A stretch of 48,604 nucleotides of DNA from NCBI GenBank assembly GCA_017959225.1, contig JAGDBD010000043.1:1-48604 (forward strand). Direction: 5' to 3'. The notes under the pieces were generated by a model, which was given only the letters and a program-made list of their open reading frames with translations, did no database searches and had not been told where the DNA came from. The stretch's first letter is position 1, and every line of letters starts with the position of its first letter. Both the position numbers and the translations under genes were made by a program. Source of the DNA: Fibrobacter sp. Its GTDB lineage: Bacteria; Fibrobacterota; Fibrobacteria; Fibrobacterales; Fibrobacteraceae. Shown piece after piece: positions 18,939 through 21,694 of this stretch.

Positions 18939-20249
18939 ATGCAGGACACAGAAATTAAAATTCCGAATGTTTTTTTGAAATTGGCGTATAGCGAGCTTCT
19001 TCTCTCCTACCGGACCGAAGATCTGGTTCCTCTCGTCCAAAATGCGAGTATCTCCAGCCGCAAATTGATCGAAAATGCGTGGCAAGAAGACGAAATGGTA
19101 AGCATTGAAGACAATGCTTTGATCATTGAAGGCTTCTCGAACTGGCTGCTTTCCAAGGGTGAAAACTTGGACGCATTCGCCGACCGCATGTTCGAAAAAA
19201 TGAAACATTTGAATTCTGTGCCAAAACGCGCCATTTTGCGTTCGTATTTACCATTTATCCATGATTTTTACGAAATGCAGGATCAACGCCAAGGGGTTTT
19301 GCGTTATAATGAAAAGCGCAACCTTTTCCACGAAAGCATGACTTTTGTGGAAGGCTCTGTCCAGGAAAATAATCGTCACGATTATTTGCTGGGTCATGAT
19401 ATTGGCGAAAATCATCCTGCTGCGGTCTATTCTTCCTGGTTGTTGCGTTCTTTGCAGCAAGCTCCTTGCCTGCTGGATCTTCCTGCTTATGAAACCATCA
19501 ATACGCTCAGCTGCCAGTATTCCGCAGAAGAAGCTTTGCTCGGTCGTTTGGCCGGAAGTCTTGAAGGTGATACTTTCTATGTCAGCGGTATCGCTGTCGG
19601 TAAAGTGGTGAAATTTGCGGAATGCCTGGCTAAAATTCCGCTGGATCTCGGCCTTTCGGACGTTGCAGACAAACTCTGCGTGCGCGCCGATACGGATGTA
19701 ATCGATACGTTTACAGGAACGCACCTTCTTTTCAAGGATCGTTATTACGGAGCTCCGGTTTCGATTGCGGAATTCGTTTATGCGAAAGATGTCCGCACCA
19801 AGGATCCGTTCTCGGGTTTGATTTCTTCCCTTGTTCAGGAAGAATACAGCGTTTGGCCGCCGGTTCAGAAGGCTCACGACGAACTTTTGCACAAAATCAA
19901 CCATGTGGCTGAAATCGTCTATTACGAAGCGGACGATTCCATTTCGGTGAACGGAAAGCATTTGATGCGCAACGTGCCGGCCCGCATTCTTCGCAATGTT
20001 CTCCGTGAATATTCGAAGACTGGCCGTGAAGAGTTCGAAAATCGCGAATTTAAGCGAGATCCGGAAATTTGTATTGATCCGGTGAACCCGAACTTTGAAA
20101 GCCGTTTGAACCGTGTCGTGGACCATTTGGAAAAGGTTTCGGACGTGATGAGCTTAAACCGCCATCGTCGCGGAGGCTTCCGTTTTGAACCGCATTGCCA
20201 TATCGACTTCCGTGAAGAACCGGCTGTGGCACGCAAACCAAAAAAATAA
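18939..20249 (+). CDS. Hypothetical protein with winged-helix-like C-terminus
   Basis: A 436-residue cytosolic protein that I cannot assign to a family. It has no signal peptide or membrane segment. Residues about 1-320 are mostly helical, with a conserved-looking acidic and aromatic composition. The last 100 residues resemble an OmpR/PhoB-type winged helix: a short beta strand SISVNGKHL, a helix RILRNVLREYSK, then NPNFESRLNRVVDHLEK followed by SLNRHRRGGFRFEP. That last part parallels the recognition helix and wing (family pattern RLRxxL...I.TxRGxGYRL). This is judged by eye only. It is divergent from mutL and appears to have its own promoter. It may be a DNA-binding regulator specific to this lineage. 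Confidence 0.7.
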   Translation: MQDTEIKIPNVFLKLAYSELLLSYRTEDLVPLVQNASISSRKLIENAWQEDEMVSIEDNALIIEGFSNWLLSKGENLDAFADRMFEKMKHLNSVPKRAILRSYLPFIHDFYEMQDQRQGVLRYNEKRNLFHESMTFVEGSVQENNRHDYLLGHDIGENHPAAVYSSWLLRSLQQAPCLLDLPAYETINTLSCQYSAEEALLGRLAGSLEGDTFYVSGIAVGKVVKFAECLAKIPLDLGLSDVADKLCVRADTDVIDTFTGTHLLFKDRYYGAPVSIAEFVYAKDVRTKDPFSGLISSLVQEEYSVWPPVQKAHDELLHKINHVAEIVYYEADDSISVNGKHLMRNVPARILRNVLREYSKTGREEFENREFKRDPEICIDPVNPNFESRLNRVVDHLEKVSDVMSLNRHRRGGFRFEPHCHIDFREEPAVARKPKK

Positions 20250-20284
20250 GCAATAAATAAGAGTGCTCCGCTAAACTTCGATTC

Positions 20285-20290
20285 TATATT
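20285..20290 (+). promoter_or_regulatory. -10 box of the tRNA-like RNA
   Basis: CTATATT at 20284-20290 predicts initiation near 20297. The -35 region is not convincing. Confidence 0.5.
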
Positions 20291-20296
20291 ATAGGT

Positions 20297-20419
20297 GTAG
20301 AATTTGGCGGAAAGGTAAATCCTCTAACAACTCTATCATTGCTCCCCTCCTGGTAAGTTCGGGGTTCGATCCGCCAGCTTTTTAGAGATCCTGTGATACA
20401 TATCGCAGGATTTCTTTTT
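20297..20419 (+). ncRNA. Candidate structured RNA, tRNA-like ends, C-rich loop
   Basis: There is a promoter-like CTATATT before it and a strong terminator at its end. Within it, TGGCGGA (20305-20311) and TCCGCCA (20370-20376) pair over 7 bp, exactly as a tRNA acceptor stem 73 nt long would, and GGTTCGATCC lies just before the 3' strand like a T-loop. The interior cannot be folded into D, anticodon and T arms. It carries GCTCCCCTCCTGG at 20341-20353, which is complementary to Shine-Dalgarno sequences. It could be a C-rich sRNA, a decayed tRNA or a structured leader for the small gene that starts at 20453. Confidence 0.5.
20388..20419 (+). terminator. Terminator of the tRNA-like RNA
   Basis: The 10-bp stem ATCCTGTGAT/ATCGCAGGAT (one G-U pair) with an ACAT loop is followed by TTCTTTTT. 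Confidence 0.88.
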
Positions 20420-20452
20420 ATATAATTGAAAAATAAAGAGGTGGCTGGAAAT

Positions 20453-20722
20453 ATGGTTAAAAAGATTGAACCGATTGGGCTTGATCGCGATGGATATACA
20501 TTCATCGTCGCAAAGGATGGAACTATTTATTATACAGGCGAATTGACGCGTCATTTGTCCTTGATGTGGAGAACGGCCTGTAAAATGGAAGATATTGCTT
20601 GGGGCGGAATTTTAAATGACCGCGGAGACTGGGTTCGGCGCAGCTATGATTTTGGGGACGCTCCCACCCTTGAGATTCGAAATTCGGTGATTTCTGCCAT
20701 TCAAGAAGAAATTTATGCGTAA
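20453..20722 (+). CDS. Small hypothetical protein, 89 residues
   Basis: I recognise no family. The ATG at 20453 follows an AAAGAGG site at about 10 nt. The protein has no signal peptide or membrane segment. It is soluble, with an N-terminal beta-hairpin-like part (GLDRDGYTFIVAKDGTIYYTGEL) and a Trp-rich middle (MWRTACKMEDIAWGGILNDRGDWVRR). The gene sits alone between two terminators, the upstream one belonging to the tRNA-like RNA, so it may depend on read-through from that promoter. Confidence 0.6.
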   Translation: MVKKIEPIGLDRDGYTFIVAKDGTIYYTGELTRHLSLMWRTACKMEDIAWGGILNDRGDWVRRSYDFGDAPTLEIRNSVISAIQEEIYA

Positions 20723-20761
20723 CCTATGGGTTACAAATAAAGTAAAAAACAAAGAAAATGC

Positions 20762-20795
20762 AAAAAATCGTATTCTATCAGAATACGATTTTTTG
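20762..20795. terminator. Terminator after the 89-residue protein gene
   Basis: The perfect 14-bp stem AAAAAATCGTATTC/GAATACGATTTTTT encloses loop TATCA. The A and T tracts on both sides make it bidirectional in principle. Confidence 0.92.
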
Positions 20796-20842
20796 TTATT
20801 TGTGGGCAATGTGCAAAAGGAGATGTTTAGATTTAGTTTGTC

Positions 20843-21694
20843 ATGAAAAGCGTGTTTGAATACGACAATTACCGTGAATATTTGAAAGATGTACATGATT
20901 CCGGGAATCGTGCAAGCTTTTCGTGGCGCGCCATCGCAATGCGGGCAAAAATTTCCAATCCGAATTTTTTACGACAAGTGATGCTTGGCGAAAGAAACCT
21001 CAGCGAAAAGAAAGCCGATACCGTGGGCATGGCTATTGGTTTGCAAGGCGCGGAACTCGAATTCTGGATTTTGCTCGTCAAATATTGCCAAGCGGATACG
21101 GATGCCGCTTGTAAACATTATAAACAGGAGTTGGCTCAGCTTCGGGGACATGTATACCTGACGCAAATATCCGAAGGCTTTTCGGAATATTATGGGCATT
21201 GGTATATTCCCGCTATTCGGGAACTGGTGACCCTTTACGATTTTCACGATGATTATTTGTTGCTAGCCAAGTCGCTTTATCCGCCGATTACGGAAACGGA
21301 AGCAAAATCGGCAGTTCAAGTGCTTGCCCGCTATCATTTTATCCAAAAAGACAAAAATGGGCGATGGGTGGAATCCCATCGGGCTTTGCGCAGTGGATGC
21401 CCGGCGCAACATAAAGCGCTTATCCGCTATCATAGGGACATGCTTGAAAAAGCAGCGGAAGCGATGTTTGCGCTGGATAAAGACAAACGTTTTGTGGGAG
21501 GAATGACGCTTGGAGTATCAAAGGAGTGCTTTCGGAAGATTTTGGCGGAAGTGGAAAAATTCAAGAATCGAGTGGCGACACTCGCTTTGAACGATTCCAA
21601 AGGAGATAGAGTCATTCAAGTGGCTTTACAAATTTTTCCGACAGGATTTTCCCCGGGCGAGACAAGTAAAGGAGAAAATATCACGAAAAAATGA
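20843..21694 (+). CDS. TIGR02147 family protein (Fibrobacter paralogous family)
   Basis: A 283-residue cytosolic protein with the TIGR02147 layout: an opening FEYDNYREYLKDVH, an HTH-like segment (SWRAIAMRAKISNPNFLRQVMLGERNLS, about 27-54), EKKADTVGMAIGL, and a long helical C-terminal domain. Many copies occur in Fibrobacter genomes. The N-terminal part looks like a lambda-repressor-type HTH, so members are probably regulators, but I know of no experimental function. An AAGGAG lies 20 nt before the ATG, too far for normal use. A weak TAGATT box 9 nt before the ATG would make it another leaderless candidate. Confidence 0.9.
   Translation: MKSVFEYDNYREYLKDVHDSGNRASFSWRAIAMRAKISNPNFLRQVMLGERNLSEKKADTVGMAIGLQGAELEFWILLVKYCQADTDAACKHYKQELAQLRGHVYLTQISEGFSEYYGHWYIPAIRELVTLYDFHDDYLLLAKSLYPPITETEAKSAVQVLARYHFIQKDKNGRWVESHRALRSGCPAQHKALIRYHRDMLEKAAEAMFALDKDKRFVGGMTLGVSKECFRKILAEVEKFKNRVATLALNDSKGDRVIQVALQIFPTGFSPGETSKGENITKK

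Follow-up and report, generated by a model that had tools for sequence, protein, structure and literature searches.

A predicted hairpin RNA family of the Fibrobacteraceae with a conserved loop complementary to Shine-Dalgarno sites

Background

C-rich single-stranded seeds directed against Shine-Dalgarno (SD) regions occur in RsaE/RoxS of the Firmicutes. In the Rhizobiales, the NfeR1/alpha-r14 RNAs (SmelA075/SmelA099) display an anti-SD motif that is ultraconserved, in loops whose stems vary, are independent of Hfq and act by occlusion of the ribosome-binding site (PMC10746234, PMC3927594). NmsRA and NmsRB of Neisseria meningitidis are sibling copies whose anti-SD regions are UC-rich, single-stranded and complementary to SDs; one of these regions is located in a loop (PMC5362039). 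For the class Fibrobacteria, 37% SD use and the anti-SD sequence CCUCCUUU have been published (PMC10783764). Literature searches found no trans-acting sRNA described for the phylum Fibrobacterota. The Fibrobacteraceae, a family of this phylum, are cellulose degraders in herbivore and termite guts.

The current study concerns one locus in a stretch of 48,604 nucleotides from Fibrobacter sp. (contig JAGDBD010000043.1), the whole of which is referred to as the window. A preliminary description, made from the letters alone, had called a structured RNA at this locus.

Results

Organization of the locus

The predicted RNA gene (20285-20419, + strand) begins with a -10-like box, continues with a single irregular hairpin of about 75 nt and ends in an intrinsic terminator (Table 1). 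It lies between the end of a gene for a 436-residue protein (18939-20249) and a small gene that begins at 20426 or 20444 and ends at 20722. A simple consensus scan of the + strand at the locus found no sigma-70 promoter, and the promoter was called because a TATATT-type box recurs in most relatives, where it is found 24-30 nt upstream of GGTA. Five loci of the type seen in Ca. Fibrimonas (genus g6, which we infer to be this candidate genus) have an additional TTGACA-like box. A terminator-like stem with a T-run usually follows the RNA outside Ca. Fibrimonas (by eye, in most other genera), and in Ca. Fibrimonas T-rich sequence often comes directly after P1 itself. Both the promoter-like box and the terminator of the preliminary description are present in the window.

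Two features were observed nearby. The loci of genus g2 (for example L021, L071-L073, L091-L094 and L097) have an almost invariant CU-rich sequence, TATTTTCTCCTTCTTAGGAA, just 3' of P1, where the terminator region begins. In the window, a near-perfect inverted repeat after the small gene (20760-20796) has the form of a terminator in either direction, with stems of 17 and 16 bp on the two strands.

Table 1. Parts of the predicted RNA in the window, and second copies at other loci
Feature	Position	Strand	Remarks
-10-like box TATATT	20285-20290	+	no clear -35 in the window's genome
P1, 5' strand UUGGCGGA	20304-20311	+	covariation within Ca. Fibrimonas
TGGCGGA	20305-20311	+	spans 72 nt with TCCGCCA
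Internal-loop sequence GGUAAAU	20314-20320	+	near-invariant in 35 members
P2, 5' strand CCUC	20321-20324	+	double changes with 20361-20364, C-G to U-A among them
P3, 5' strand, one bulged base at 20333	20329-20337	+	89.9% of cells paired; double changes in 5 of 8 pairs
Apical loop AUUGCUCCCCUCCU, 14 nt	20338-20351	+	proposed seed; includes anti-SD core CCUCCU
C-rich string GCTCCCCTCCTGG	20341-20353	+	
Near-invariant nonamer UCCCCUCCU within the apical loop	20343-20351	+	identical in 69 of 74 genomes
P3, 3' strand GGUAAGUU	20352-20359	+	covariation
P2, 3' strand GGGG	20361-20364	+	covariation
Internal loop, 3' side UUCGA	20365-20369	+	makes the T-arm look-alike GGTTCGATCC, window's genus only
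P1, 3' strand UCCGCCAG	20370-20377	+	fold and covariation
TCCGCCA	20370-20376	+	
Intrinsic terminator, 14-bp stem 20384-20415 plus T-run	20384-20419	+	terminator-like stem
Second, diverged copy, L007	1795-1883		
Second, diverged copy, L033	4479-4561		
Second, diverged copy, L087	2093-2149		
Second, diverged copy, L088			just after the first copy

Covariation supports the fold

Alignments of 35 and later 31 distinct members gave a single irregular hairpin, in which P1, P2 and P3 are stacked beneath an apical loop of 14 nt (11 nt in Ca. Fibrimonas). The folding energy of the whole transcript had a z of -4.4 against shuffles, to which the terminator contributed part, while the 75-nt core alone had a z of -1.2. 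In P2 and P3 together, 86.8% of the cells were paired and 8 of the 12 pairs had changes on both sides (26 cells, against 11.5 in shuffled alignments); in P1, tested within Ca. Fibrimonas, 97.3% were paired with 12 double-changed cells against 4.0 shuffled, figures that are not probabilities because the counts share ancestry between sequences. The slide control, in which shifting the partner of P2 and P3 by 1-3 columns left only 19-48% of the cells paired, and the clear replacement of stems below the C-rich loop in L071 (CAGUUG/CAACUG), in the second copy of L087 (GAUAUUCAG/CUGAAUAUC) and in L091 are stronger evidence than the shuffle counts. The sequence and register of P1 vary between genera, which is why RNAalifold, run on the raw alignment, missed this helix.

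Two other foldings were considered. Moving the P3 register by one base gave a lower score than the register chosen. In the window's genus, minimum-energy folding of the single sequence preferred an alternative CCCC-GGGG fold, with a predicted advantage of about 3 kcal/mol over the conserved one; however, it showed no covariation and only 55% of its cells were paired, and P2/P3 was preferred.

Distribution of the family

By DNA search, the region was recovered from all 37 of the sampled Fibrobacteraceae genomes, and 24 genomes of other families gave no match. A covariance model, R1, built from the hairpin matched 103 of 111 Fibrobacteraceae genomes, representing all 11 genera; 57 genomes from elsewhere in the phylum gave no match. 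Of the eight R1-negative genomes, five (G071, G096, G109, G118 and G133) have a diverged copy that lies near the gene for the 436-residue protein and precedes the same 3' element, and the remaining three have a completeness of 62-81%. Nearly all genomes of the family carry one copy. Family-wide conservation together with covariation in all three helices is the decisive evidence that the locus is more than a chance structure, and it bears out the structured small-RNA gene that the preliminary description had called.

Outside the family, a 19-nt string of loop and stem was sought in 84,980 species genomes, and the matches were records of Fibrobacterota plus two others, from Desulfobulbaceae and Bacteroidetes. 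Both look like chance because GGTAAAT and P1 are missing, and they were rejected as homologs; the Desulfobulbaceae match sits within an open frame of 727 codons. A marginal match of model R2 in G045 (E 0.016) was unconvincing by eye. The viral contigs searched contained no match. No family of Rfam 15 matched the RNA at the gathering cut-off, and five other loci of the family were likewise negative; a permissive Rfam scan of 20250-20430 gave scores far below the gathering cut-offs. Judged by its sequences, this is a real, previously uncatalogued RNA family that is near-universal in the Fibrobacteraceae.

The apical loop and the internal loop

The stems vary in a compensatory manner while the loop nonamer remains identical in all but five of the 74 genomes inspected, a count that includes L089 as read by eye. 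The exceptions, five Fibrobacter genomes of which three lack CCUCC, are G095 (UCCCCAUCU), G071 (UCCCCUCUU) and G109, G118 and G133 (UUCCCUC). The exposed C-rich anti-SD segment noted in the preliminary description corresponds to this loop, the most conserved part of the molecule. Since the letters of the loop are kept and the stems only by their pairing, function probably centres on the apical loop, with the stems serving to hold it. A conserved anti-SD motif in a loop on variable stems is the pattern of the anti-SD-loop sRNA class.

The sibling copies follow the same rule. They lie within about 250 nt of the first copy in genus g10 (L007 and L008) and in Ca. Fibrimonas (L033, L087 and L088), and they retain a CCCC-containing loop with changed flanks and covarying stems.

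The internal-loop sequence GGUAAAU is near-invariant in the main set and was lost in several divergent members, which keep a CCC-containing loop. It is a possible site of protein binding or tertiary contact, and since both GGUAAAU and the loop flanks are near-invariant, the RNA may well bind an additional partner.

Shine-Dalgarno sites and Hfq

The CCUCCU of the loop is the core of the published anti-SD CCUCCUUU (PMC10783764). The family uses SD sites: upstream of 349 starts in the loci analyzed, GAGG was found 45 times at -20 to -5 and 6 times at -55 to -40. The expected 3' end of 16S rRNA, TGGATCACCTCCTTT, was present in none of eight genomes, one of them complete (G000, G002, G005, G008, G009, G010, G033 and G100), probably because the rRNA was not in the searched sequences or because the tail differs. 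The anti-SD was therefore taken from the published work (PMC10783764) and not from the 16S tails of these genomes. A search for Hfq (PF17209) in 26 genomes of the phylum, among them that of the window, gave no match, while control genomes were positive.

Search for mRNA targets

GGAGGGG or AGGGGAG occurred 2-11 nt before ATG at about 6 to 57 sites per genome, and the 9-nt complement of the loop before ATG at 0-5 sites per genome beyond the antisense strand of the gene itself. In G002, six matches to the 9-nt complement were listed; five sites lie outside the antisense strand, four of them in one gene array. No one target that carries AGGAGGGGA before ATG was found to be conserved among the genera searched, and the proteins behind 40 fetched sites were mostly unrelated between genera. 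In the window's genus, four of six genomes had one further site for the exact 10-mer AGGAGGGGAG besides the antisense strand, none of them at a plausible gene start. The sole site in the window's own genome precedes a STAS-domain-like protein, of which the genomes searched yielded no close ortholog.

Some recurrences were seen. Different Fibrobacter species had sites before four lipoprotein-like paralogs, probably FISUMP-domain proteins, and two Ca. Fibrimonas genomes had them before chemoreceptor-like proteins. A further recurrence was the array in G002 (L212, G002:C1:2994000-3003000) of tandem paralogous exported proteins of about 260 residues, each gene of which follows AGGAGGGG(A/G)AGATG. 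The array may consist of sRNA targets, or may merely have copied a strong SD. In two genera rpsR is preceded by AAGGGGAGG, but the sequence overlaps the end of the preceding gene.

sRNAs of this kind commonly act through short seeds on more than one mRNA, and the failure to find an orthologous, fully complementary target therefore neither supports nor excludes an sRNA. The target results leave room for a protein- or ribosome-directed role.

Discussion

A possible mode of action

The reading that we favor, and hold to be somewhat better than an even chance, is that the RNA is an Hfq-independent, trans-acting sRNA that would block the translation of mRNAs with G-rich SD sites, much as the unrelated rhizobial NfeR1 does. 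The loop would be a seed presented on the hairpin formed by P1, the GGUAAAU internal loop, P2 and P3. Its 3' half, CCUCCU, could pair with the SD sequence GGAGG or AGGAGG of an mRNA, and the pairing could run on into GGGA toward the start codon, the full complement being the 10-mer used in the target search. A loop paired in this way would cover the ribosome-binding site and lower translation, and Hfq would not be needed. The extension on the start-codon side, which lies beyond the reach of the ribosome's own anti-SD, might provide selectivity over the general SD (AAAGGAGG). This reading is favored by the near-universal distribution in one family, the covarying stems under a frozen loop, the C-rich loops of the sibling copies, the promoter-like box and terminator, the use of SD sites and the negative Hfq search. 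Against it stand the lack of an orthologous target in the genera searched, the near-invariance of GGUAAAU and the loop flanks, the stability predicted for the CCCC-GGGG fold in the window's genus and the altered loops of five Fibrobacter genomes. The preliminary description had proposed a C-rich sRNA that could bind SD regions; this idea holds as the best explanation, while binding to ribosome-binding sites stays conjectural, with no orthologous target in the genera searched.

Alternative explanations

The RNA could instead serve as a sponge or scaffold, in which a protein, or the 30S platform at the seat of the 16S anti-SD, binds GGUAAAU and the C-rich loop, and the RNA titrates this factor and does not pair with mRNA. 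Several observations are in its favor, 1) GGUAAAU and the whole 14-nt loop are more conserved than a short seed requires, 2) nearly every genome has one copy, 3) no mRNA target is orthologous between the genera searched and 4) Hfq was not found. However, the divergent members have dropped GGUAAAU yet keep the CCC-containing loop, the loop is complementary to SD sites, which are in use, and no candidate protein was identified. We regard this explanation as unlikely, though it retains some weight. A broader and more doubtful proposal is that the RNA might be a family-wide partner of the translation-initiation machinery, with its copy of the anti-SD core and the internal loop as a docking site; its effect would then be on SD-dependent initiation as a whole, or on a protein involved in handling the 16S tail, and not on a few mRNAs.

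A cis-acting element of a neighboring gene, such as a riboswitch, an attenuator or a 3'-UTR element, is improbable. The usual order is mutL (divergent), the gene for the 436-residue protein and then the RNA, and in Ca. Fibrimonas the RNA lies upstream of a gene for a small exported protein at 8 of the 12 loci inspected, both of which would suit such an element. However, the neighbors differ between genera, and not the fixed 5'-UTR position before one gene family of a riboswitch or leader was seen. No gene for the 436-residue protein was found beside the RNA in L009, L017 and L020 (genera g8, g11 and g7), where the RNA adjoins mutL, nor in Ca. Fibrimonas, where the RNA occupies other, varied loci, some of them without a close co-oriented gene downstream. 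Because it has its own promoter-like box, a terminator after it in the window and changing neighbors, the RNA appears to behave as an autonomous gene, an independent transcription unit that is not tied to one neighbor.

Regarding the neighbors themselves, the 436-residue protein has no Pfam or NCBIfam match and is conserved in most Fibrobacteraceae as well as in f2, another family of the same taxonomic order. The small protein of about 92 residues (20444-20722) also matches no family and follows the RNA in two genera. A paralog of TIGR02147 (Fsuc_second)/DUF4423 is encoded just downstream, at 20843-21694.

The tRNA-like ends of the preliminary description had a factual basis in the window. The pair TGGCGGA/TCCGCCA is present, its span within one base of the tRNA distance that had been claimed, GGTTCGATCC does sit beside the 3' strand, and there is, as stated, no cloverleaf: ARAGORN and Rfam found only a genuine tRNA-Arg at 2457, and no tRNA was among the permissive Rfam matches. 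The span and the string are features of the window's genus. Within that genus F. intestinalis has the version GGTTCAATCC; elsewhere in the family the position reads GGTTCTG, GGTTCC, GGTACC or GGTGCC, and the T-arm motif GGTTCGANTCC of tRNAs (RF00005) is not kept among the relatives. Neither of the two outcomes that the preliminary description had named as refuting it was seen, as there was no tRNA score and the C-rich segment proved to be retained. The outer stem was wholly different between genera and shifted in register, and tRNA-like ends are not supported. Identity as a present-day tRNA is refuted by the negative tRNA searches, the one-genus T-arm and the covariation of a single hairpin, and a decayed or unusual tRNA, for which the similarities in the window's genus speak, is exceedingly improbable, since the covarying fold is not a cloverleaf and the proposed descent gained no positive evidence.

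Comparison with described anti-SD RNAs

The RNA shares with NfeR1 a conserved anti-SD loop, variable stems and about the same transcript length (123 nt in NfeR1) (PMC10746234, PMC3927594). NfeR1 is independent of Hfq (PMC10746234), and the phylum of the RNA described here is the one in which the Hfq search was negative. However, NfeR1 belongs to another phylum, has three hairpins each with CCUCCUCCC and has proven targets, whereas the Fibrobacteraceae RNA has one hairpin with the loop CUCCCCUCCU and a conserved internal loop, and no sequence relation between the two was seen. With the NmsR RNAs it shares an SD-complementary loop and sibling copies (PMC5362039). The NmsR RNAs differ in having three stem-loops, two anti-SD regions and tandem siblings as a rule, whereas siblings are found in only some genera of the Fibrobacteraceae. 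The RNA also differs from RsaE/RoxS in that it matches no Rfam family at the gathering score. The architecture of RsaE/RoxS is likewise different.

There is also a likeness to the ribosome, as the 3' tail of 16S rRNA, with the anti-SD CCUCCUUU (PMC10783764), shares CCUCCU with the loop. The loop extends the core on the 5' side with CUCC, whereas the 16S anti-SD extends it on the 3' side with UU, so that the two would read mRNA bases on opposite sides of that core.

Conclusions

The Fibrobacteraceae have an RNA family, predicted from conservation and covariation, that had not been catalogued, in a phylum in which 26 genomes yielded no Hfq. The variable stems beneath a frozen loop show where the site of function would be. 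If the loop does not act on SD sites, the RNA is something less familiar; if it does, the anti-SD loop would be a solution that evolved in this family independently of the rhizobial and neisserial cases.
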